Virus record (IMG/VR): IMGVR_UViG_3300023184_000381
Location: 1 to 30,364 of that record
Direction: 5' to 3' (one strand)
DNA from: a virus
Length of the DNA stretch: 30,364 nucleotides
Position numbers and translations under genes: made by a program. The notes beneath the pieces are model-generated. The model saw nothing but the letters and a program-made list of their open reading frames with translations, was not told the DNA's origin and searched no databases. Numbering within the stretch: the first letter of the stretch is position 1; every line of letters begins with the position of its first letter. Shown in pieces: positions 3,284 through 25,219 of the stretch.

Positions 3284-4582
3284 ATGGATAGTAAAAAATT
3301 CAAACAAAATTTCTCAATAGTAAATCTTAATCAACAGGATGTACCTTTTGTAAATGAAGATGTAAAAAGCAGAACTCAATGGGTTCAAGTTGGTCTACAT
3401 CATACAGATGATTATTTCTTTAAATTAAATGAAGCATATAATACTTCTACAACTAATGCAGCTTGTATTGAAGGTATATCAGATTTAATTTATGGTAAAG
3501 GATTGTATACTAAAAATGCAGGATTTGCTGATACATTAAAAAAGATATTACCACAAGAAGAATTAAAGAAAACTATTTTTGATTTAAAATTATTTGGTAA
3601 TGCAACTTTACAAGTAGTTTGGAATAAAGAACATACTCAGATTATTAAATTCTATCACGCTCCTGTTCAACATTTTAGAGCAGAGAAGTTAAGAGGAATA
3701 CCTAAGATAGAAAATTATTACTATTGTACTGATTGGTTTGACCAAAAAGCAATTAGAAATAAAATTAAAGTTCCAGCTTTTGGAACATCTAATGAACAAA
3801 CTGAATTATTATACATTAAGAATTATTCTCCTGGTCATTTCTATTATTCTTTACCTGATTGGTTTCCTTCATTTCAGTTTTCACAAGTTGAAGCTGAATT
3901 AAGTAATTTACATTTAAACAATATTGAAAATGGTTTCTTACCTATGGTTATGGTTAATTTCAACAATGGAGTTCCAGCACCTGAGGAAAGAGAGACGATA
4001 GAAGGATTGCTAGGGGCTAAATTTACAGGTACTAGAAACGCAGGTAGGTTTATGACATCATTCAACGATGACCCAACTACGAAGCCGACAATCGATGTAA
4101 TACAGATTGATAACCTACATGAGAAGTTTGAATATGTTGCTAATTACGCACAAGAAAAAATATTAGTAGCACATAGAGTTACTTCACCTTTATTATTTGG
4201 TATTACTACTAAAGAAAAAGGATTTAGTTCTAACTCAGAGGAGATGATGACAGCATTTAGTATTATGCAAACTATGACAATATCTCCATTCCAAAATTTA
4301 ATTCTTAATACATTAGAAAAAGCATTGGGTGAAGGTGGATATGATAGTACTGATTTATACTTTGACCAATTAACTCCATTAGCTTTATTATCTCAACAAG
4401 CAGATGATACTAAACAAACAATTGATGAAGTAGCAGATGAAACTAATAAACAAATGGAAAATCCTTCTACAACTGATAATAATGAAGAGGCAATGGATAA
4501 CCAAAGTATTAATACACAACCTAATGTTCAATTAAGTTCAGCATTTTTTAGAAACGAATACGAAATATATAATACAAAATAG
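3284..4582 (+). CDS. Portal protein
   Basis: This 432-residue protein has the typical portal order: a polar N-terminus, the 'ITNAACIEGISDLIYGKGL'-like segment (about 48-66), a long beta-rich wing, a helical region with 'YAQEKILVAHRVTSPLLFGI' (about 286-305), and a Gln/Asn-rich C-terminal tail. Dodecamers form the DNA entry channel at one capsid vertex and dock the terminase (25185-26345). The segment AHRVTSPLLFGITTKEKGFSSN matches the stem/helix region of portals in the SPP1/HK97-like superfamily. It is slightly short for the family. The connector gene at 4586 follows directly, which supports the call. Confidence 0.85.
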   Translation: MDSKKFKQNFSIVNLNQQDVPFVNEDVKSRTQWVQVGLHHTDDYFFKLNEAYNTSTTNAACIEGISDLIYGKGLYTKNAGFADTLKKILPQEELKKTIFDLKLFGNATLQVVWNKEHTQIIKFYHAPVQHFRAEKLRGIPKIENYYYCTDWFDQKAIRNKIKVPAFGTSNEQTELLYIKNYSPGHFYYSLPDWFPSFQFSQVEAELSNLHLNNIENGFLPMVMVNFNNGVPAPEERETIEGLLGAKFTGTRNAGRFMTSFNDDPTTKPTIDVIQIDNLHEKFEYVANYAQEKILVAHRVTSPLLFGITTKEKGFSSNSEEMMTAFSIMQTMTISPFQNLILNTLEKALGEGGYDSTDLYFDQLTPLALLSQQADDTKQTIDEVADETNKQMENPSTTDNNEEAMDNQSINTQPNVQLSSAFFRNEYEIYNTK

Positions 4583-5111: not shown

Positions 5112-6752
5112 ATGGCAGTAGTAAATAATAGTGGATTAAATTATACTCTATATTATAGTGTATTAGATTATTTCAAAACAATAATGAGTAATCATCCTTC
5201 GATAGCACAAGTATCGACCGGTGATAGATTTGGTATTGATGATGTTGAATATCCTTATTATCCATTAGGTAATGTTTTAATTACAGAATCTACGTTTGGT
5301 ACTAATACAACTGAATTTAGTATTCAACTTACTATTGCAGATAAAATAAAATTAAAAAACAATGAAAGTTCAGGTAGTGCAAACTATTTAACAGTTCCAT
5401 ATTTAGGTGTAGATGATGTTGTTGATATTCACGCTAATACTCTAGGTATATTAAATGATTTAACAGCTTATACACAACGTTCTCAACAAGCATTTCAAAT
5501 TAATTCAGATATTAATTGTACTCCATTTAAAGACCAATTTGATAATGGATTAGCAGGTTGGGTTTCTAATTTTACTCTTACTACACATAATGATAAAAAT
5601 ATGTGTTTGTTTGATTTGAATCCACAAACTACAACTTCTACAACAACAGCAGGTCCTACTACGACAACAACTACGTTACAGCCAACTACTACTTCAACGA
5701 CAAGTACAACTTCAACGACAAGTACAACTACATTAGCACCAACGACTACAACAACAACGTTAGAGCCAACAACTACTACGACAAGTACAACTACTGCAGG
5801 ACCAACAACTACAACTACAACGGCAGCATTACCTGGATATAGTTATTATAGAACACTTAATTGTATAACTTCTAGTCTTAGTAGTGTAATTGCAATTGCT
5901 GATTCAATTAGTTCAAGTTTAACACCAGGACAAGTTGCGTGGGGTAATGGAGTTTGTTCAACTTTACCTAATCCACTTACTACAATATCACCTACAACTC
6001 CTAACTTTATAGTAAGTAGTTCATTACAATTTAATTCTTGGTATGGTGGGAATCAATGTGGATATTGTCAGAGAGACCATTATAATGATATAATTATTCC
6101 TTCAGGTTGTTTATCTTATACATATGATTTCTTTGGAGCTGGTATTGGTGATGTTTCAATGACAGCATCATATTTAGATTGTAATTCAAATCCTATAACA
6201 CAATCATTATATATTAGTGGTGCATATGGAGATTTGACATTTGGATTAGCAGCTTCTACAAAACCAGTTATTACTAATTTAGTAACATCAGCAAATATAA
6301 TTAATTCGGCATATACAATAAATGCTTCTCCAACTATTGGTTTACCGGTGAATCCTTACAATCTTTATTTGTACGCAAATGATGGAGGAGCTGGATTAAG
6401 ATATAGTTCTTCTTATAGTAGAGAAGGAAGTGGTACTAATTTAGGATTCAATGGTTCGTATGTTCAAGTTTCACAATTTGACGCTTCATCAGCATTATGT
6501 GATAGTGGAAGCAGAGTTGCAGTATTAGGTAGAGTTAATGACAGTTATGGATTAAATACCGGGGCGAATACATTATCTATTGCAACATTAAGCGGTAGTG
6601 AATCTAATTCTAATAAACAAACTTTAGAATATATTCAATTAAGAAATGACCAGAATTATTGGACACCTAATACAAACCAATTAATACATAATAATTATGG
6701 CGATTGGTTTAATATTAACTTTATGGTAACTTGTTCAATTTATACACCTTAA
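5112..6752 (+). CDS. Tail terminator-like protein fused to Thr-rich linker and Cys-containing display domain
   Basis: This is a 546-residue, three-part protein. Residues 1-170 look like a tail terminator or head-tail joining protein: 'VLDYFKTIMSNHPSIAQVSTGD', then 'YPLGNVLITESTFGTNTTEFS' giving the expected alpha-beta pattern. Residues about 173-240 are a linker of almost only Thr, with Ser, Pro, Ala and Gly interruptions (TTAGPTTTTTT units). Residues about 241-546 form a Tyr/Ser/Asn-rich region with C316-x2-C319-x13-C333-x23-C357. That region shares a pattern with the C-terminal region of 10385-11608. A normal terminator ends near residue 170, so the rest is an extension that probably projects from the neck. 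Its ligand is unknown. Thr repeats may be targets of the nearby glycosyltransferases. Confidence 0.7.
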   Translation: MAVVNNSGLNYTLYYSVLDYFKTIMSNHPSIAQVSTGDRFGIDDVEYPYYPLGNVLITESTFGTNTTEFSIQLTIADKIKLKNNESSGSANYLTVPYLGVDDVVDIHANTLGILNDLTAYTQRSQQAFQINSDINCTPFKDQFDNGLAGWVSNFTLTTHNDKNMCLFDLNPQTTTSTTTAGPTTTTTTLQPTTTSTTSTTSTTSTTTLAPTTTTTTLEPTTTTTSTTTAGPTTTTTTAALPGYSYYRTLNCITSSLSSVIAIADSISSSLTPGQVAWGNGVCSTLPNPLTTISPTTPNFIVSSSLQFNSWYGGNQCGYCQRDHYNDIIIPSGCLSYTYDFFGAGIGDVSMTASYLDCNSNPITQSLYISGAYGDLTFGLAASTKPVITNLVTSANIINSAYTINASPTIGLPVNPYNLYLYANDGGAGLRYSSSYSREGSGTNLGFNGSYVQVSQFDASSALCDSGSRVAVLGRVNDSYGLNTGANTLSIATLSGSESNSNKQTLEYIQLRNDQNYWTPNTNQLIHNNYGDWFNINFMVTCSIYTP

Positions 6753-6758
6753 TCCATT

Positions 6759-7115
6759 ATGCCAGGTCCTACTTTAAAACAAATAGCTACTGAATATCAA
6801 TCTTTAGCCAAATTAGCAATCCAAAGAAAACCTAATAGAGCAATAGATACTGGTACATTAAGAGATAGTATAAAAGTAATACAAACGCAAACTAATAAGA
6901 AGGGTGGAGCAATCTTTGATTTAAAGACCGTATACTATGGTTACTTTGTAGAGAATGGAACAAAATATATGAAAGCTAGACCATTCGCAGCAGAAGCAGC
7001 TGATTCTGATACACTTAAAGCAATGATTGATGATTACTTTAAATCTGAGGTTGAATTAACTTTAATGGCAGTAATGCAGGCAACTGATAAGAGATTAAAA
7101 AAATACGCTAAGTAA
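6759..7115 (+). CDS. HK97 gp10-like neck/tail completion protein
   Basis: This 118-residue protein has the two signatures of the HK97 gp10 family: an early 'DTGTLRDSIKV' segment (about residues 30-40) and a 'YGYFVENGTKYMKARPF' segment (about 66-82). A basic C-terminal helix follows. Family members act at the head-tail interface during tail completion. The gene starts six bases after the tail terminator-like gene, and the order portal, connector, terminator, gp10 is standard for siphophage neck modules. The end of the unit lies just upstream of the next late promoter motif. Confidence 0.8.
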   Translation: MPGPTLKQIATEYQSLAKLAIQRKPNRAIDTGTLRDSIKVIQTQTNKKGGAIFDLKTVYYGYFVENGTKYMKARPFAAEAADSDTLKAMIDDYFKSEVELTLMAVMQATDKRLKKYAK

Positions 7116-8335: not shown

Positions 8336-10372
8336 ATGGGAGTTACTTCACAACAATCCTTTAATTTTAGATTAGTAGCGAATGGAACACAATTAGACAC
8401 TTTTACAGATGAAATTATAAAGGTTTCTAATAACGTTACAGGTCTATTTGATATTGGTTTACTTCCATCAGATTTTACTCGTCAGATTACCCTACCTGGT
8501 AGTAAAACTAATAATGCTTTTTTTGAGCATGTATATGATATTTCCGTACTAAATCCTTTCTTATTTGCAACGAATGTAAAAGTTCCTTGTCATATTGATT
8601 TCGATGGTATTTATATTTCACAAGGATATTTACAATTAAATAAAGTAAATGTATTAGCAAATAAATTTATTGATTCATACGAAGTTAGTATATATGGAAT
8701 CCTTTCATCATTTAGTAGAGAAATTAATAGATTATTTTTAACTGATTTAACTGTACTTAACAAATATAATCATACTTCATCATTGCAAGCAATAACTTCG
8801 AGTTGGAGTGGCAGTTTATTTGATGGTAATATAGTTTATCCTTTAGCAGAATACGGACAAAAACTTAGTTATACTCCAGAAGAAAATTCTTTTGGAATGG
8901 ATTCACCTTATGGTGGTTTATGTGTGCAAGATTTCAAACCTGCAATTAGAATGAAAGCAGTTTGGGATGCAATATTTGAACAAACAGGATATACATACGA
9001 ATCAACATTTTTAAATGAAGATATACACCCTTGGATAAATGATATCTATATGATTTGTAATTACAAATTAAGATATCCAATATATTCAAATGTAGATGCA
9101 GAAACATATGGTTTATTTAAGATGGGACCAATAAGTGGCAGTAATATGACCAACGTAACAATGTCAGCGGGAGTTGATTTAAGATTACCTTGGTATAATA
9201 TTGAAACTAACCCAGGTGGTAATATGGGTGGAGATTTAGTTTGGAATACATCATTTCCTACTCAATTAAGAGGAGTAATAAATTTAGATTTTAATATTAG
9301 TTCATCTACACAAGCTGTACCTACTTTTGCATTTAGAATAAAAGATGCAAATACTGGAACTACAATATCAAACCAAAGATTAGGTATTATAAATAATTAT
9401 ATGGACCAAATACGTTTATATAATTCAGGACCTACTAAACCACAAACACTTCAAGTATCTCAACAATTTAATTCTGATTTATTACCATCGGGCAGTTATA
9501 AATTTTATTTAGAATATGAAAATTCATTTGAATCAGTTGGTGGAGTTAGAGTTGTTTTAGACCCAGGTAATACAGTAAATTCTTATTTAGAAGTAGAAAA
9601 ATGTGCACAAGTTGGTGATGGTTTAATACTGGATATTCCTTCTAATATGCCATATGGGACAGTTGGAATTAAATTAGTAGATTTTTTAAAAGGTATTCAA
9701 AGAAAATTTAATTTAGTAATACAACCATCTAAAACAAAATTAAATCATTTTGAAATTAGTACATTTAATGATTGGTATAAGACAGGAACAATTCGTTCAT
9801 TTGATAGATACATAAACTTAGATGAAAAGATAGAAGTAATTCCATCCAACAATTTAGCAGTAAACCAATTAAATTTTGGTGATACCTTAGACCAGGATTA
9901 TATATCATTACAATTTAGTAAGGGTGCAAATAGAGAATTTGGTAAACAATATTATATTGATACACAAAACTTTTTCTCACAAGGAACATTTGAAGTTAAA
10001 ACAACATTTGCATCTACACCCCTAATTAGATTAGCAGGAACAGGTCAATCGGGTTCGGTTGAAGGTATTAATCCTCCTGTTGTAGCATATCCTGTAAATG
10101 GTGATGGATTAGTTCAATTATCAACGTATAGTGATTATTATGATGTATGTAGTGGATATTATTCACCACAAAGAATTGTATATTCAACAACCGGATTAAT
10201 TGAAGCTAGTGCAATATTATATTTTGACCCGTATGGAACTAGTTTAGTAACTGGTTACATTTATGTAGTAGATAGTGGTAATTATTGTTCTATATGGAAT
10301 TTAAGTATGTATACAGGAGAAGTTCTATCATACGCAGATGAAAGATGTACCGATTGGGGAGGTTGTATTTAA
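8336..10372 (+). CDS. Large baseplate / tail-associated structural protein with C-terminal Cys-containing module
   Basis: This 678-residue protein resembles the first part of the large tail-tip protein of Bacteroidetes siphophages. The N-terminus (residues 10-70) has the 'FTDEIIKVSNNVTGLFDIG' and 'DFTRQITLPGSKTNNAFFEH' pattern. The middle has strand-rich hub-like regions and a helical segment 'LVDFLKGIQRKFNLVIQPSK' (about 450-470). Residues about 585-678 form a separate module with four cysteines and repeated Tyr/Ser strands, ending GGCI. In relatives as I remember them, the part resembling the N-terminus of the next gene (10385) belongs to the same polypeptide. Here a stop and the extra module separate the two. 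It probably builds the tail tip. Confidence 0.65.
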   Translation: MGVTSQQSFNFRLVANGTQLDTFTDEIIKVSNNVTGLFDIGLLPSDFTRQITLPGSKTNNAFFEHVYDISVLNPFLFATNVKVPCHIDFDGIYISQGYLQLNKVNVLANKFIDSYEVSIYGILSSFSREINRLFLTDLTVLNKYNHTSSLQAITSSWSGSLFDGNIVYPLAEYGQKLSYTPEENSFGMDSPYGGLCVQDFKPAIRMKAVWDAIFEQTGYTYESTFLNEDIHPWINDIYMICNYKLRYPIYSNVDAETYGLFKMGPISGSNMTNVTMSAGVDLRLPWYNIETNPGGNMGGDLVWNTSFPTQLRGVINLDFNISSSTQAVPTFAFRIKDANTGTTISNQRLGIINNYMDQIRLYNSGPTKPQTLQVSQQFNSDLLPSGSYKFYLEYENSFESVGGVRVVLDPGNTVNSYLEVEKCAQVGDGLILDIPSNMPYGTVGIKLVDFLKGIQRKFNLVIQPSKTKLNHFEISTFNDWYKTGTIRSFDRYINLDEKIEVIPSNNLAVNQLNFGDTLDQDYISLQFSKGANREFGKQYYIDTQNFFSQGTFEVKTTFASTPLIRLAGTGQSGSVEGINPPVVAYPVNGDGLVQLSTYSDYYDVCSGYYSPQRIVYSTTGLIEASAILYFDPYGTSLVTGYIYVVDSGNYCSIWNLSMYTGEVLSYADERCTDWGGCI

Positions 10373-10384
10373 AAATAAATTATT

Positions 10385-11608
10385 ATGAGTCAAGTTATCC
10401 CATTATATCTTCCAACTTACATTAGCTCGATAGATTATCAGCCAGCAAGAGTATTACCTAGATTATTATTTTATAATGGTCAAGTTGATTGCCAAAGTTG
10501 GTATGTAGAAGGATTTCTAAATTCTACTACATCATCAGTATATGGATATGAACAAAACACTTTTCCATATTTTGATAACTACAATGTAGTAAGTGGGTCT
10601 TTTCCAACAACAGATTCACTATCGTTACTTTTTAATAACGAAACATCACCTTACGGAGCAATACCAACCGCTAATTTATATACTGATTATTGGGAAACTT
10701 ATATTCAATTATTATATAATCCATATACAAGATTATTGAATTGTTCAGCAATTATTCCATTAGCAGATTATTTTCAAATGAACTTAAATGATATAGTTGA
10801 ATTTAGAGGAAACTATTATCACTTAAGAGCAATCAATGATTATAATTTACAAAATGGTGAATGTAGTTTACAATTATTAGGACCAATTATTCCAGATTCA
10901 CTTAGTGGTATATTATTCCCTTGTAATTTTGATTTTAGTGTTACTGGATTAACTACGACTACTACAACTACAACCGCAGCACCAACTACAACAACTACAA
11001 CAACGGCAGCACCAACTACAACAACAACCGCAGGACCTACTACGACGACAACTATTGGTCCTAGTACAACTACAACAACAGTAGGGCCTATTGGTGGATA
11101 TTATTATTATGCGGTTAGTGATAGCTGTTGTGGTAGTGAATTAGATAGAGCAATTGCAGGAGTTGTAGCAATTACATCATCATTAGGAATATTCTCTCAA
11201 TATAGAGTAGTTGCTGGAAATACATGGACAGGCAGTACTGGTAGACATTGTGCGGTAATTGAATATGTAACATCATCTACTACTCCATTATTGTTTACTA
11301 TTGAACAAACACAAGCTAATAGTAATACTTATGGTATTGGCCAATGTGGTAGTTGTAATAGAGATTATGTTCCTTCAATAATAGATAATAATTGTCAATA
11401 TTTGGTTGTATCAACTATTTATGGTGAGGGTATATCAACCGCAAGTTGGAATGATTGTACAACAGGAACTGCTATAACACAAAGTAGTAATGGTGATACT
11501 TTAATAACTATGTGTTCAAGAACATCACCTATTTTAAGTTGGCCAAATGGGGTAGAAAAAAGTAAAACAAGATTATCTGTGAGTTGTTCATATTGTGGAA
11601 CGTTTTAA
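10385..11608 (+). CDS. Baseplate protein with Thr-rich linker and Cys-containing display domain
   Basis: This 407-residue protein is in three parts. Residues 1-185 continue the baseplate pattern: 'ARVLPRLLFYNGQVD', then 'YWETYIQLLYNPYTRLLNCSA', then a strand-rich end 'GECSLQLLGPI'. Residues about 190-236 are an almost pure Thr linker with AAP, AGP and IGP breaks. Residues 237-407 are a display-like domain with C321-x2-C324-x12-C337-x20-C358 and 'QCGSCNRD'. That region lines up with 'QCGYCQRD' in the tail terminator fusion at 5112-6752. The AAAAATAAATT leader before the ATG is typical of Bacteroidetes genes. Likely role: tail-tip ring carrying an adhesin or decoration domain. Confidence 0.65.
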   Translation: MSQVIPLYLPTYISSIDYQPARVLPRLLFYNGQVDCQSWYVEGFLNSTTSSVYGYEQNTFPYFDNYNVVSGSFPTTDSLSLLFNNETSPYGAIPTANLYTDYWETYIQLLYNPYTRLLNCSAIIPLADYFQMNLNDIVEFRGNYYHLRAINDYNLQNGECSLQLLGPIIPDSLSGILFPCNFDFSVTGLTTTTTTTTAAPTTTTTTTAAPTTTTTAGPTTTTTIGPSTTTTTVGPIGGYYYYAVSDSCCGSELDRAIAGVVAITSSLGIFSQYRVVAGNTWTGSTGRHCAVIEYVTSSTTPLLFTIEQTQANSNTYGIGQCGSCNRDYVPSIIDNNCQYLVVSTIYGEGISTASWNDCTTGTAITQSSNGDTLITMCSRTSPILSWPNGVEKSKTRLSVSCSYCGTF

Positions 11609-11617
11609 AAATAAATT

Positions 11618-12955
11618 ATGAGTGTAGCTAAAATAATAACATTGACAAACAAAGGAAACGCAGCAGGACCTTACTATGAAGTAAGTTGTTCTAACGATTG
11701 TGTAACTTATGGTTCATGTGTAACAACAGGAAGTGTATATTTACCTACTATTGGTAGTACCGCTACTATTAATATTTATGATACTACAACTTGTATTAAA
11801 TTAGTAAATTATAATACTGAATGTAATAATTCACAAGTACAAACTTTTGCAGCAAGTGGTTCTACAACTTCTACTACAAGTACAAGTACAACTACAACTT
11901 CTACAACTACAACAATATCTCCACTTACAACAAATGGATTAGTATCTTGGTTAAGTTGTAATTCATTAACAGGTTCAATTTGGTATGATAAATCAGTAAA
12001 TGGTAATAATGCATTAGTTAGCGGAAGTGCATTAACACAATCAGGCAGTTTAGGAATTGCATTTAATGGTACAAACAATTATTTAACTTATACTCAGCCA
12101 ATAACAAATCAACCTAGTGCTATTTACACATATCAATTTTATGGTACATTACCATTGACTGGAGCAAATGAATGGATGTTTGTGAATGGTAATGGTAGTA
12201 ATAGAAATGGTTTAATTTGGTCACCAACAACTAGTCAATTTATATGGATAAGCACGGGTCCAGCATATGCAATTACAGTTTCAGTTGCATCTGCTGAAAA
12301 AGCAGTATGGACAATTTTATTAGATTGGAACTTTGGTGGTTTTGAGATTTGGAAAAATAATTCATTTGTTGGATATATAACTGCTGGAGTTTATAAATTT
12401 GATAACTTTGGTGGTTTTGAATTTGGATATTTACAAGGAACAGATGCAACAGGAACATACTTTGCTGGCGCTGCACAAGATTTAATAGTATATAATAGAA
12501 GATTAACAAATGGTGAAATTACAACTAATTATAATTATTTAACTGCACAAAGTTGTAATTATGCACCTACAACAACTACAACAGCAGCACCTACAACAAC
12601 TACAACAACAGCTTCAACTGCAACATTAAATTGGTCATATTCAATAACAGGTGGGCCAACTTCTAATTATATGTACCTTTATATTAATGGTAGTATTGTA
12701 GAAACTAGAAGTTCTACATCATCTGGAAATTATTCGGTAAATTTAGGTGATGTTATTTATGTTGATTTAGGTGCAAGCGGATGTGGTGGAGGAAGTCCTA
12801 AAGCAAATGCATATACGAGTGGAATTATTTCTGATGCAAGTTGTGCAAATGGTACAACAACATTAAGTTCATACAGCTACACAGTAGTATCTGGCGATTT
12901 AGGAAATGTTTTACATTTAGATTGTTTTGCATCTTGTGATTATGGATGTTTGTAA
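11618..12955 (+). CDS. LamG-like adhesin / receptor-binding protein with Thr-rich linkers
   Basis: This 445-residue protein has a Cys-rich N-terminal domain (residues 1-80, with C23, C27 and C33 among others). A Thr/Ser linker follows (about 82-103). Residues about 105-310 form a concanavalin-like (LamG-type) domain: 'LVSWLSCNSLTGSIWYDKS' at its start and 'AAQDLIVYNRRLTNGEITTN' at its end are the usual LamG landmarks. A second Thr linker (316-332) leads to a C-terminal strand-rich, Cys-containing domain ending CFASCDYGCL. LamG domains in phage tails bind glycans, so a role in host surface recognition is likely. It ends the baseplate unit. Confidence 0.65.
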   Translation: MSVAKIITLTNKGNAAGPYYEVSCSNDCVTYGSCVTTGSVYLPTIGSTATINIYDTTTCIKLVNYNTECNNSQVQTFAASGSTTSTTSTSTTTTSTTTTISPLTTNGLVSWLSCNSLTGSIWYDKSVNGNNALVSGSALTQSGSLGIAFNGTNNYLTYTQPITNQPSAIYTYQFYGTLPLTGANEWMFVNGNGSNRNGLIWSPTTSQFIWISTGPAYAITVSVASAEKAVWTILLDWNFGGFEIWKNNSFVGYITAGVYKFDNFGGFEFGYLQGTDATGTYFAGAAQDLIVYNRRLTNGEITTNYNYLTAQSCNYAPTTTTTAAPTTTTTTASTATLNWSYSITGGPTSNYMYLYINGSIVETRSSTSSGNYSVNLGDVIYVDLGASGCGGGSPKANAYTSGIISDASCANGTTTLSSYSYTVVSGDLGNVLHLDCFASCDYGCL

Positions 12956-13013: not shown

Positions 13014-13985
13014 ATGAATCTTCGTTTTGTAAGTGCACAACCTGCAACTGAATACTATGTTTGGCAAGTAGAAGTAATGCTAAACAATTTTACTAAAGTA
13101 GGAATTAATTTAAACAATGTAGATATTGTTTGTTGGAAACAAAATGGTGTAATACCAGATAGTTGGTCTAAATTAGCAAATAATTATCCTGCTCGTTTTT
13201 TCTTTTATGATGATGAAAGAAAAACTAAACATTACATATCATCAATCCGTCCTAATATCTTAAAACAACATTGGAAACAATATCCTGAATTAAAAGATGA
13301 AGCAATCTTTTATCATGATTGTGATATTGCTTTTACTAAACCTATCGATTGGAATCAGTTTCTAAATGATGATAAATGGTATGGTAGTGATACAAGATGG
13401 TATATAGGACATGATTATATTATCGGTAAGGGAGAAGATGTTCTTAGTGAAATGTGTAAGATAGTTGACATAGATAAAGATTTAGTTAAACAAAATGAAC
13501 TAAACTCTATTGGTGCACAATACATAATGAAAGGAATAGATTATCAGTTTTGGGATAATGTAGAAAAAGATTCAGAAAATTTATTTAGAGAAATTAATTT
13601 ATTAAGTAATAAAAAGAAATTGATAGAACCTTCTTATCACGAGTTACAAATATGGTGTGCAGATATGTGGGCAGTATTATGGAACGGATGGAAATTAGGT
13701 AAAGAAACAATTTGTCATCCTGCATTAGAATTTAGTTGGGGAACATCAACCGAAGATGATTGGAATAGATTAAATATATTTCATAACGCCGGTGTAACAG
13801 GTGAAGGACAAGGATTATTTTATAAAGCAATTTATATGAATAGATATCCTTACAATGATAATATTATTGTTAATGAAGGAACAGCAAGTTGGCATTATTG
13901 GCAATTAATTAAAGAAGTAGCACAAAAATCAGTATTAATAGAAGAAATAATAATTCCTGTAAGGGGAATATACATTGGAGATTAA
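13014..13985 (+). CDS. Putative glycosyltransferase (GT-A-like)
   Basis: This 323-residue cytosolic protein has no signal peptide or membrane segment. The stretch AIFYHDCDIAFTKPIDW holds a DxD-type motif (D102-C103-D104) after a hydrophobic strand. That is the metal/nucleotide-sugar site of GT-A glycosyltransferases. Downstream, 'SDTRWYIGHDY' and 'IGAQYIMKGIDYQFWDNVE' match the acceptor half of such enzymes. The last third is rich in Trp. It is joined to a methyltransferase-like gene with no intergenic base and a second glycosyltransferase-like gene. The set could glycosylate virion proteins or host surface glycans. Substrate and sugar are unknown. Confidence 0.6.
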   Translation: MNLRFVSAQPATEYYVWQVEVMLNNFTKVGINLNNVDIVCWKQNGVIPDSWSKLANNYPARFFFYDDERKTKHYISSIRPNILKQHWKQYPELKDEAIFYHDCDIAFTKPIDWNQFLNDDKWYGSDTRWYIGHDYIIGKGEDVLSEMCKIVDIDKDLVKQNELNSIGAQYIMKGIDYQFWDNVEKDSENLFREINLLSNKKKLIEPSYHELQIWCADMWAVLWNGWKLGKETICHPALEFSWGTSTEDDWNRLNIFHNAGVTGEGQGLFYKAIYMNRYPYNDNIIVNEGTASWHYWQLIKEVAQKSVLIEEIIIPVRGIYIGD

Positions 13986-14468
13986 ATGAAAAGAATAATA
14001 TCAGAAGAACCGGATTTACATTGGGGATTTTTAGATTTCAAAGATAAAATAGTTTTAGATTTAGGATGTGGTAAATTTTATTCTAAATTATCAACTGCAG
14101 AATGGTTTGTACAAAACGGAGCATTAAAAGTAATTGGTATAGATTTAGGAACTGAAATAGTTGATGATAATAAGTTTATATATCATACATTAAACATAGA
14201 TTCTACCCAAAAGATTAAAGGTCTTATTGAAACATATAAACCACATATTATTAAAGCAGATATTGAAGGTGCAGAAAAGTATTTTGATGATTTAAAATTA
14301 GATGAATTGGGTAGAGTTAATGAAATAGCAGTAGAATATCATTCACATAATTTAAAATTAGGATTTGAATTAAAATTGTTAGAGTGGGGATTTAATATCA
14401 TTGATATATACGGATTATTTGATGAAGATATACATAGAGTTGGAGTTATACACGCAAAAAGAATTTAA
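13986..14468 (+). CDS. FkbM-like SAM-dependent methyltransferase
   Basis: This 160-residue protein has a glycine-rich SAM-binding motif, VLDLGCG (D25 to G29), followed by an acidic strand end 'VIGIDLG'. The FkbM-family signature 'IKADIEGAE' falls at residues 90-97. FkbM-type enzymes add a methyl group to oxygen, often on sugars. It is shorter than free-standing family members (about 200-250 residues) but keeps the core fold elements. Its start is directly after the stop of the glycosyltransferase-like gene and it abuts the next one, so the three are expressed together. It probably methylates the sugar added by its neighbours. Confidence 0.65.
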   Translation: MKRIISEEPDLHWGFLDFKDKIVLDLGCGKFYSKLSTAEWFVQNGALKVIGIDLGTEIVDDNKFIYHTLNIDSTQKIKGLIETYKPHIIKADIEGAEKYFDDLKLDELGRVNEIAVEYHSHNLKLGFELKLLEWGFNIIDIYGLFDEDIHRVGVIHAKRI

Positions 14469-15332
14469 ATGAAAATATTATCAGCAACATATGGTGGACA
14501 ACCAATCACAGAGTTAATTAGCTCTAAAATTTCGGGTGATAAATTACTTTTGAAGGTATCCAATGATATCATAGGTGACCCTCAACCAGGCACCTTAAAA
14601 TACTTACAAATACAATACGAACATAATGGAGAAATTTTAAACGGAAGTTATAAAGAAAATACAATTTGTTCTTTACCAAAATCTAATACAAATAAATTAG
14701 GAATCTTTTATTCTAATAATAATAATTCAACAATTTATCCTACTATTGAAAAATCGTTAGAAACTATAAAAATAGCCTCTGAAAATAAGGCTGATATACT
14801 AACATGTGTATGGAATCACATACCAAATAACCCTTTTAGTGAAATAATTAGTTGGTATCAATCTCAATCTCATTTAAATCAATTATTACAAATAATGCAA
14901 TGTTTATATACAGCAAGAGAAATGGGAAATTATGAGTATGTATCATTTTTAGAGCATGATGTTCTATATGCAGAAGGCTATTTTGATTATCCTGAATTTG
15001 AAAGTGGAAATATATACACAAATATGAATTTTATTGGTGTAAATAAAGAAGGTTGGCAACCATTAGGTCAAAGAGATGAGCCATTTCACCAAATGACAAT
15101 GAAATTTGATGATGCAATTAAACATTGTGAAAGAATAATTGGAAATGCATTAATAAGAAATAGTGGTATGATTGAACCACAAGATATGAATAGAAAACAA
15201 TGGGAATCATCTAATCCATCAGTTCACGTAAATCACGGACATCACTTTACTTCACACTATTCAATTTATAAAAAAGCAGATTCAAAAGAGAATCCTTATT
15301 GGGGTAATTTCTCAGAATATATATTACATTAA
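14469..15332 (+). CDS. Putative glycosyltransferase with N-terminal DUF3395-like domain
   Basis: This is a 287-residue protein. Residues 1-70 (ILSATYGGQPITELI, then GDPQPGTLKYLQIQY) resemble a small beta domain I recall as DUF3395, with the 'GDPxPGxxKxLxxxY' pattern. Residues about 80-287 look like a glycosyltransferase core: 'LGIFYSNNNN', then 'YVSFLEHDVLYAEGYFDYPEF' with H163-D164-V165 in the DxD position, then a His-rich end 'VHVNHGHHFTSHYSIYKKA'. No membrane segment is visible. The gene is fused operon-style to the methyltransferase. Sugar donor and acceptor cannot be read from sequence. The domain name is from memory. Confidence 0.55.
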   Translation: MKILSATYGGQPITELISSKISGDKLLLKVSNDIIGDPQPGTLKYLQIQYEHNGEILNGSYKENTICSLPKSNTNKLGIFYSNNNNSTIYPTIEKSLETIKIASENKADILTCVWNHIPNNPFSEIISWYQSQSHLNQLLQIMQCLYTAREMGNYEYVSFLEHDVLYAEGYFDYPEFESGNIYTNMNFIGVNKEGWQPLGQRDEPFHQMTMKFDDAIKHCERIIGNALIRNSGMIEPQDMNRKQWESSNPSVHVNHGHHFTSHYSIYKKADSKENPYWGNFSEYILH

Positions 15333-15372: not shown

Positions 15373-15522
15373 ATGATACAAGGAATTTTAGATTTATTAC
15401 AATTAGATAACTTTTATGGTGTATCAAATAATATTGATATAGCTAAAGGATTATATAGTATACCAAAATCTATTTCAGATGGTACTACACAAATTAAAAG
15501 AGCTTGGAAATCTAAGAAGTAA
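15373..15522 (+). CDS. Small hypothetical protein upstream of tape measure
   Basis: This 49-residue basic protein starts MIQGILDLLQLDNFYGVSNN and ends with a Lys-rich tail. The stop overlaps the tape measure ATG by one base (TAATG), an arrangement repeated at other gene pairs here, so it is probably translated and coupled. A short tail component or chaperone accessory is possible. No family is recognised. The start lies only 3 bases after a promoter-like motif, which makes initiation at this ATG uncertain. Confidence 0.5.
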   Translation: MIQGILDLLQLDNFYGVSNNIDIAKGLYSIPKSISDGTTQIKRAWKSKK

Positions 15523-17144
15523 TGGCGGATAATACAACCACATATAAAGCCGTAATTGAGACCGAAGTAAAAGGTCAGAAGCAAGTTGATGATTTAAACA
15601 AATCATTAGACACAGGTGATGAAAAGTTTGTTTCTTTAAGAAAACAAATTAGAGAAACTACTGTCGCATTGCAAGAGATGGCAGATAAAGGTCAAACTGG
15701 AACTAAAGAATTTAAACAACTATCTGATAAATTAGATGATTTAGGAGATGCACAAAAAAGAGTTGCATTCCAATCAGGTCAAATTGAAGATAAATTATCT
15801 GCATTACCTGGTCCAATCGGACAAATAGGTAAGGGGTTTGCAGCAGCAAAAGATGCAGTAGATACATTTGGTGTTAACTTAGCAATTGCAACAGGTGGTA
15901 TTACCTTAATCATTGGTGCAATTATTGCAATGAAAGATGCAATGGGTAAAACCAAAGAAGGTAATGAGGCATTAAATAAAGTAACTGAAGCATTAGGTAA
16001 GGTAATGGCCCCTATATTTGCTTTATTAGAAAAAGTAGCAATACCATTATTCTTAAAATTTGCAGAAGTATTAGAATGGGTAGCAGGTAAAGTAACTAAA
16101 TTTGTAGAATGGTTAGGTGTATCAAAAGGTAAAATTGGAGAAATTGCAGCAGAAGGTGATAAAGCATTTTGGGATGCTAGAGAAAAAGATTTAGAACATG
16201 CTAAACTTGTGGCAGATACCTATAAAGCAATTGATGATAAAAATAAAGCAGAAGCATTAGAAAGACATAAGAAATGGTTAGATAAACAAGCTGAATTACA
16301 AAGAGAAGCTGATGAAAAAGAAAAGCAAAGTTTAGCTGACCAATTAGCTAAATTAGAAGCTCTTAAAAAGAAATTTAGAGCAGTTAACTTAGACCCAATT
16401 GGTTCAGATGGTTTAACTGTAAAAGAAAGAGAAAAGGCATTAAAAGAAGAAGCAGATAGAAAGAAGTATTTCCAAGATAAAATGGATGCAATGACCAAAG
16501 AACAGCAACCAAAAATGCTAGCTTGGGCATTGGCAAATACTAAAAGTGCATTATCAAAAGAAATAGAATTAAAAAATGCATCAGCTAAAAAAGAAAATGC
16601 AGTTGATACATGGTTGAGTTCTGAAAAGAAAAAGAAATTAGACCAAAACTTACAGGCAGTTAAAGCAGGATTAAACATTGCTGGTAATTTAGTTGATGAA
16701 GGTAGTGGAGCAGCAAAAGCAATTGCAGTAGCACAAACAGGTATAGATACTTATCAATCAGCAACGGCAGCATATAAAGCAGTTGTTGGTATTCCAGTTG
16801 TAGGACCTTTCTTAGCACCGGTAGCAGCAGCGGCAGCAATTGCAGCAGGTTTAATGAGTGTTAATAAAATACTTTCAACACAAATTCCTAAAATGGGAGA
16901 TGGTAGTAGTGGTGGAGGAGTAGGTGCAGAATCAGTATCAATTACACCTCCAACAGCACCTTCACTTCCTTCAATGCAATTTAATGATAGTTCAATGAAT
17001 GTAGGTGGTAATAATCCAACTTCACAAATTGCAAACACATTAGCACAAACAACAAAGAAACCAATTAAAGCATATGTAGTTTCAACAGATATGAGTTCAG
17101 CGCAAGCATTAGATAGAAGAACCAACGTTGCAGCTACATTTTAA
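15522..17144 (+). CDS. Tape measure protein
   Basis: This 540-residue protein is mostly helical with heptad-like Lys/Glu/Ala regions (residues 20-80 and 210-380). Hydrophobic stretches fall near 110-140 ('LAIATGGITLIIGAIIAM'), 160-190 and 415-450 (Ala-rich with 'PVVGPFLAPVAAAAAIAAG'). The C-terminus 'KAYVVSTDMSSAQALDRRTN' is the typical end of Bacteroidetes phage tape measures, which join the tail tip. Length sets tail length: at about 0.15 nm per residue the tail would be near 80 nm, short for a siphovirus. It would be wrapped by chaperones from the frameshifted gene at 26561, which lies elsewhere in the genome. The start overlaps the previous stop. Confidence 0.8.
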   Translation: MADNTTTYKAVIETEVKGQKQVDDLNKSLDTGDEKFVSLRKQIRETTVALQEMADKGQTGTKEFKQLSDKLDDLGDAQKRVAFQSGQIEDKLSALPGPIGQIGKGFAAAKDAVDTFGVNLAIATGGITLIIGAIIAMKDAMGKTKEGNEALNKVTEALGKVMAPIFALLEKVAIPLFLKFAEVLEWVAGKVTKFVEWLGVSKGKIGEIAAEGDKAFWDAREKDLEHAKLVADTYKAIDDKNKAEALERHKKWLDKQAELQREADEKEKQSLADQLAKLEALKKKFRAVNLDPIGSDGLTVKEREKALKEEADRKKYFQDKMDAMTKEQQPKMLAWALANTKSALSKEIELKNASAKKENAVDTWLSSEKKKKLDQNLQAVKAGLNIAGNLVDEGSGAAKAIAVAQTGIDTYQSATAAYKAVVGIPVVGPFLAPVAAAAAIAAGLMSVNKILSTQIPKMGDGSSGGGVGAESVSITPPTAPSLPSMQFNDSSMNVGGNNPTSQIANTLAQTTKKPIKAYVVSTDMSSAQALDRRTNVAATF

Positions 17145-24901: not shown

Positions 24902-25219
24902 ATGGCGAAGTTTGAACAAGGAAATAAGATAGGTAAAGGTAGACCAAAAGGTAAACCAAATAAAACAACTGCAGAGATAAAAGATATTATTACTCGTATT
25001 GTTGGTAATCAGTTAGAACATATAGAAGCTGATTTAGAAAAGATAAGAAAGAATGACCCTGCAGAAGCAATGAGGTTATCATCTAAGTTTATAGATTATG
25101 TTATACCAAAACAAACTAAGATAGATTTAGAAGGTGAGTTAAGACATAAGGTAGATAAATTAGTTATTGAGATTAAAACAAACAATGGCAAGAACAGCGA
25201 CGATAGAAACAACGATTAG
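24902..25219 (+). CDS. terS: Terminase small subunit
   Basis: This 105-residue protein starts with a Gly/Lys-rich arm ('KFEQGNKIGKGRPKGKPNKT', i.e. the GN-x-x-GKGRPKGxPNKTT pattern of Bacteroidetes phage small terminases) and continues as helices. It ends with a polar Asn/Asp tail. It would recognise packaging initiation sites and feed DNA to the large subunit. Its 3' end overlaps the large-subunit gene by 35 bases, which supports co-translation and the call. It is shorter than many small terminases (about 130-180 residues). Confidence 0.7.
   Translation: MAKFEQGNKIGKGRPKGKPNKTTAEIKDIITRIVGNQLEHIEADLEKIRKNDPAEAMRLSSKFIDYVIPKQTKIDLEGELRHKVDKLVIEIKTNNGKNSDDRNND

Follow-up and report, generated by a model that had tools for sequence, protein, structure and literature searches.

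The window analysed here is the whole of one virus record (IMGVR_UViG_3300023184_000381), 30,364 bases in length. Its structural module is siphovirus-like, with a portal gene at 3284, a neck protein gene at 6759, the tape-measure gene at 15522, and a terminase gene at 25167. Three plus-strand open reading frames within this module abut exactly, as the original prediction had described: gene A (13014-13985), gene B (13986-14468), and gene C (14469-15332). They are flanked by genes for Thr-rich virion proteins on one side and, downstream, by the tape-measure gene (15522-17144; phrog_2854, E 1e-9). Gene C is followed by a 49-codon open reading frame (15373-15522) that reaches the tape-measure gene and overlaps its start codon (TAATG). 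Some relatives carry open reading frames of about 69 residues at this site.

Three proteins of the structural module, all encoded on the plus strand, had been singled out as Thr-rich, and Thr arrays were located in each. The protein immediately upstream of A (11618-12955) contains a mixed Thr/Ser array (11843-11932; 16 Thr in 30 residues) and a second Thr array (12569-12625; 13 in 19). Next upstream, the virion protein at 10385-11608 comprises a core of about 172 residues, a Thr linker (10943-11080; 31 Thr in 46 residues), and a C-terminal domain. The third, at 5112-6752, contains the longest array (5628-5822; 44 Thr in 65 residues). Each is a candidate acceptor for glycosylation. The arrays mix ACT, ACA, ACG, and ACC codons and therefore are not pure DNA microsatellites; a microsatellite artefact was considered as their source and rejected on these grounds.

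Gene A encodes a protein of 323 residues that matches phrog_4417, a family annotated as of unknown function, over its full length (E 3.9e-65; residues 4-303 aligned to positions 2-292 of the 293-position profile). Searches of Pfam and NCBIfam yielded no family for it, and no annotated PHROG matched. An AF2 model built from 40 relatives (pLDDT 94.8, pTM 0.91) aligns over most of the protein with glycogenin (VIA-align Z 14.9), LgtC (14.5), and UGGT (13.8), the lowest Z being 13.0. The alignment to glycogenin covers 226-231 residues (rmsd 3.5 at 226 aligned), and Foldseek, run on the same model, also supports a GT-A fold. Residues D102 and D104, which form a DxD motif, are invariant in two alignments that reach down to 30% identity; H257-N-A-G260 and K271 are conserved as well. 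The CAZy GT8 signature HxxGxxKPW was not found in A with its canonical spacing, the gap between His and Lys being 14 residues, not 6, and A is therefore termed glycogenin-like rather than GT8. Both the predicted fold and the DxD motif support A as a GT-A glycosyltransferase of glycogenin/LgtC-like type, proposed here to prime Thr residues.

Gene C (287 residues) is supported as a second predicted GT-A glycosyltransferase, so that structure prediction backs both of the glycosyltransferase-like genes originally proposed. Its AF2 model (pLDDT 89, pTM 0.85) aligns with GT-A enzymes through residues 73-283 (VIA-align Z 13-15), and an acidic metal-binding motif, E162-H-D164, is invariant in 28 sequences. 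Neither Pfam nor NCBIfam supplied a family for C, nor did the annotated PHROGs. The N-terminal beta domain may be lectin-like, of the rhamnose-binding type: the first 90 residues include a GD...G..KYLE motif in common with L-rhamnose-binding lectins. The match to one such lectin (5h4s) has a whole-sequence E of 1.3e-8 that sums three repeats, the best single-domain i-E being only 0.13.

Gene B (160 residues) may encode a short class I SAM-dependent methyltransferase, proposed here to O-methylate the glycan. Its Pfam matches (FtsJ, E 0.0014; Methyltransf_31 and Methyltransf_32) lie at E 0.001-0.004, all under the gathering score, and its profile finds methyltransferases in the PDB at E 1e-4. 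About 30 relatives occupy the same position and conserve the motifs DLGCG and KxDIEGxE. The earlier description of B as FkbM-like holds loosely: a motif of FkbM type, KADIEGAE, is present, but PF05050, the FkbM model of Pfam, was not among the hits of B at E 0.1; a true FkbM domain (E 1.2e-17) is present in another cassette (L040). A search of viral contigs with B alone returned nothing, though relatives of B do occur beside A.

Relatives of the window phage were collected by similarity to a different gene, encoding the structural protein at 8336-10372, and 29 with at least 7 kb of downstream sequence were kept. A Thr array was scored as at least 14 Thr in 30 residues. Gene A and Thr arrays agree in all 29: 13 relatives have both, 16 have neither, and none is mixed (Fisher p 1.5e-8). 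(One of the 13, L333, has its array in a 79-residue open reading frame that is cut by the locus end and falls just under the initial length cut-off.) The absence of A from the 16 was confirmed by searching whole records. On a tree of the 8336-10372 protein, the trait changes five times, A and arrays being gained or lost jointly; all five independent pairs agree, for which the sign p of 0.0625 is the lowest attainable. The co-occurrence that the original prediction proposed to check in related genomes is therefore complete in this set. In relatives without A, the 10385-11608 orthologue has no Thr array and mostly consists of a core of 170-190 residues alone, with the tape-measure gene immediately after it; some encode a longer version, again without an array. 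The counterpart of 11618-12955 occurs only in some of the relatives with A.

Phages of Bacillota provide a second setting. A scan of bacterial genomes for A yielded 55 loci, of which 36 are from Bacillota, and all 36 have poly-Thr open reading frames within 4.5 kb of A, compared with 1 of 332 distant open reading frames. Here the poly-Thr mostly is C-terminal, on capsid, tail, or connector proteins, and unrelated capsid and tail proteins of the same phage bear near-identical Thr tails. As a control, 249 genomes of the order Bacillales were searched with one capsid protein, which 27 of them have. Four of these capsid proteins have a poly-Thr tail, each with A about 2 kb downstream; the other 23 are untailed, and none of their genomes has A anywhere (p 5.7e-5). 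Both of the independent pairs agree, although such pairs are few in this set (two) as in the window lineage (five). An unrelated capsid family from Lactobacillales behaves similarly: two of 14 members are tailed, both adjoining A, and none of the 12 untailed members has A adjacent, although in one case A is present on a separate contig.

Cultured phages that carry A show the same association. Poly-Thr stretches occur on capsid and tail proteins of Enterococcus phage phiFL2A; on a tail protein of Lactococcus phage bIL285; on capsid, tail, and a small Thr-array protein of Lactobacillus phage iLp84; and on tail proteins of Staphylococcus phage SA2 and Arcanobacterium phage TPWB06. Chryseobacterium phage MA9V-3 has such a stretch, and in Enterococcus phage 9183 the poly-Thr is short and interrupted. 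That A is almost always accompanied by Thr stretches in unrelated phages suggests a widespread, portable sugar coating of virions. The proposal that linkers are the acceptors thus fits the window itself, but elsewhere the candidate acceptor often is a C-terminal poly-Thr tail on a capsid or tail-tube protein.

The major tail proteins of SA2 (L097, 5117-5930) and TPWB06 (L099, 5164-5926) end in TTTTTTTTP-CCC-TAA; beyond CCC, a long Thr array continues in the +1 frame. Because CCC-TAA is kept in both phages, a programmed +1 frameshift is suggested, which would give some subunits a long Thr extension.

Might the arrays simply be unmodified linkers, flexible or rigid, with A co-travelling in one exchangeable adhesin module? 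The joint appearance of linker, C-terminal domain, and cassette in the window lineage would fit this reading, as would the many contigs that have Thr arrays without A. Yet four relatives without A (L307, L308, L312, and L322) have the adhesin extension and no Thr array. Moreover, the Thr runs of Bacillota phages are C-terminal tails, carried at once by several proteins that are unrelated to one another, and A follows different genes in different phages. Unmodified linkers thus are a quite unlikely explanation. As to arrays without A, 50 records were picked by scanning viral contigs for the DNA pattern (ACN)12; A is present in eight and absent from 42. The implication claimed here is therefore one-way, from A to Thr runs. 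Profile HMMs from our own alignments, run against 44 Thr-array contigs, detected no divergent copy of A, B, or C. Arrays in contigs lacking A would be served by other enzymes, or by none. (In L131-L248, which are viral contigs, Thr arrays commonly occur with no phrog_4417 relative.)

Relatives of A were found in at least 298 stretches of viral contig. Among the 94 sequences first compared, relatives of C accompany A in 67 and relatives of B in 30, with A-(B)-C as the usual order. A Thr-rich open reading frame lies directly upstream of A in 48 of 72 distinct viral-contig cases, compared with 36 of 846 other open reading frames, an adjacency beyond chance. The genes after A vary but mostly are glycan genes: where C or B is missing, the slot holds GT2, GT25, Gly_transf_sug, true FkbM, other methyltransferases, NAD epimerase, APS kinase, or radical SAM genes. 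A constant A followed by variable genes suggests that A acts first. The original idea of a self-contained system that glycosylates Thr linkers is supported in outline, with the amendment that A alone is constant and B and C are exchangeable.

Two occupants of the slot deserve separate mention. In some phages (L056, L075, and L093) the gene after A encodes a radical SAM/SPASM protein, which is found also in Thr-array contigs that lack A (L136 and L198). In L044 the slot holds an APS kinase-like gene (13867-14337), a hint of sulfated glycans.

Several genes in this slot (Gly_transf_sug/Caps_synth, GT25, FkbM, epimerase) are typical of surface polysaccharide loci. The cassette might instead alter the host surface (O-antigen or capsule) against superinfection, its location among tail genes being incidental; and in one clade A-B-C indeed lies away from Thr-rich genes. 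Such a role, however, predicts neither the agreement between A and Thr arrays nor the position of A adjoining capsid and tail genes in Bacillota; the Bacillota phages examined have A beside structural genes, with other glycan genes absent. Inspection by eye also finds no long hydrophobic stretch in A, B, or C, as would be expected of a flippase or membrane glycosyltransferase. Surface modification is accordingly judged very unlikely.

In the remaining 24 of the 72 cases, none of the three open reading frames upstream of A is Thr-rich; most belong to the single clade just mentioned, which has larger genomes. Six records with A but no Thr-rich neighbor were read nearly in full, and all six encode Thr-rich proteins elsewhere. 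(An exact (ACN)9 pattern misses the Thr/Ser arrays in these 60-kb genomes; reading the open reading frames finds them.) The cassette is thus not widespread in phages lacking Thr-rich proteins, as judged from 29 of 29 relatives, 36 of 36 Bacillota loci, and these six of six records.

Other exceptions are L353, a MAG contig, and the chromosomal paralogues of A, which are without poly-Thr virion proteins. Long relatives of A in Sphingobacteriales and Chitinophagales are two-domain proteins, in which A is fused to a second glycosyltransferase-like domain; they lie on the chromosomes of Sphingobacterium, Pedobacter, Chitinophaga, and Mucilaginibacter (L350-L367). Their neighbors include GG-leader peptides, C39 exporters, thioredoxins, and LanC-like genes, and the core of one nearby GG-leader peptide reads SWTTTTTTSS. 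These clusters apparently resemble glycocin or RiPP clusters, which makes a peptide acceptor plausible for the A family. (In L362, a GG-leader precursor beside the A relative, at 9609-9857, has a core that starts SWTTTTTTSSVPVT.)

This bears on another possible substrate. Phage glycosyltransferases often act on DNA (PMC12619734), and some copies of A lie outside the structural module, so A might modify phage DNA bases in the manner of the T4 glucosyltransferases. Against this stand the link between A and Thr-rich proteins and the location of its chromosomal relatives in peptide clusters; base-modification genes next to A are not in evidence. A role in DNA modification appears exceedingly improbable.

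Very probably, then, A-B-C is a cassette with which the phage O-glycosylates Thr-rich proteins of its own virion. A, predicted to be soluble, would use a nucleotide-sugar donor to place the first sugar on Thr (and Ser) in the poly-Thr arrays of the proteins at 5112-6752, 10385-11608, and 11618-12955. This step would take place in the cytoplasm of the host, either ahead of assembly or in the course of it. C would then extend the first sugar, perhaps aided by its putative lectin-like N-terminal domain, and B would methylate the glycan, with the exchangeable neighbors of A contributing decoration alongside C and B. Thr runs would serve as a portable tag, placed as linkers between adhesin domains in the window and as C-terminal tails of capsid and tail-tube proteins in phages of Bacillota. 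For the virion, the benefit might lie in linkers that are stiff and resist proteases, in shielding, or in a change of adhesion.

A broader reading is put forward with moderate confidence. Here, the members of phrog_4417 are peptide-Thr O-glycosyltransferases of a new family, which employs a portable poly-Thr tag on capsid, tail-tube, and adhesin proteins in phages whose hosts span at least two phyla; its two-domain relative in Bacteroidota chromosomes glycosylates bacteriocin-like peptides; and the genes downstream of A constitute an exchangeable slot for glycan decoration. This provides a testable function for a family common in environmental and Bacillota phages, and would explain the puzzling poly-Thr tails and linkers of virion proteins. 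It also predicts that glycosylated virions are far commoner than the mycobacteriophage cases. Several cultured phages carry A, Lactobacillus casei phage PLE3 among them, and A plus a simple Thr tag might serve for protein glycosylation in bacteria.

Three known enzyme systems resemble parts of the cassette. Glycogenin, LgtC, and UGGT (GT8 and GT24) have in common with A the fold over most of the protein and the DxD motif, but identity is only about 10%, the spacing of the GT8 HxxGxxKPW motif differs, and A has no Pfam family. Polypeptide GalNAc-transferases also are GT-A enzymes with Thr/Pro-rich acceptors, and join a glycosyltransferase to a lectin domain, as C would with its putative lectin-like N-terminus; the C model aligns with GalNAc-T2 at Z 13.0, a structural likeness rather than demonstrated homology. 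Their lectin domain is of a different type (ricin-type), and the setting of the cassette is the bacterial cytosol. Glycocin-type bacteriocin clusters contain GG-leader precursors, C39 ABC exporters, and thioredoxins, as found around the chromosomal relatives of A. These clusters, however, are not phage encoded, and there the A relative is fused to a second glycosyltransferase-like domain; the known glycocin glycosyltransferases belong to GT2.

The closest functional precedent comes from mycobacteriophages. The virions of Che8, Corndog, and Myrna are reported to be glycosylated, and phage-encoded glycosyltransferases modify capsid and tail-tube proteins, reportedly at their C-termini (Freeman et al. 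2023, as described in PMC12363180, PMC11256854, PMC12619734). Phage-encoded enzymes acting on capsid and tail proteins would be the feature in common with the system proposed here. By sequence, A matches 74 phage records, none of them from a mycobacteriophage. The capsid and tail proteins of Che8 end in KTGS and YSDGS, not poly-Thr, whereas the window type has a poly-Thr tag and hosts that are mainly Bacteroidota and Bacillota. No prior report of polythreonine or Thr-rich phage glycosylation was found in the open-access literature. Virion glycosylation thus is known from mycobacteriophages, whereas the phrog_4417 enzyme family and its poly-Thr acceptor appear to be new.
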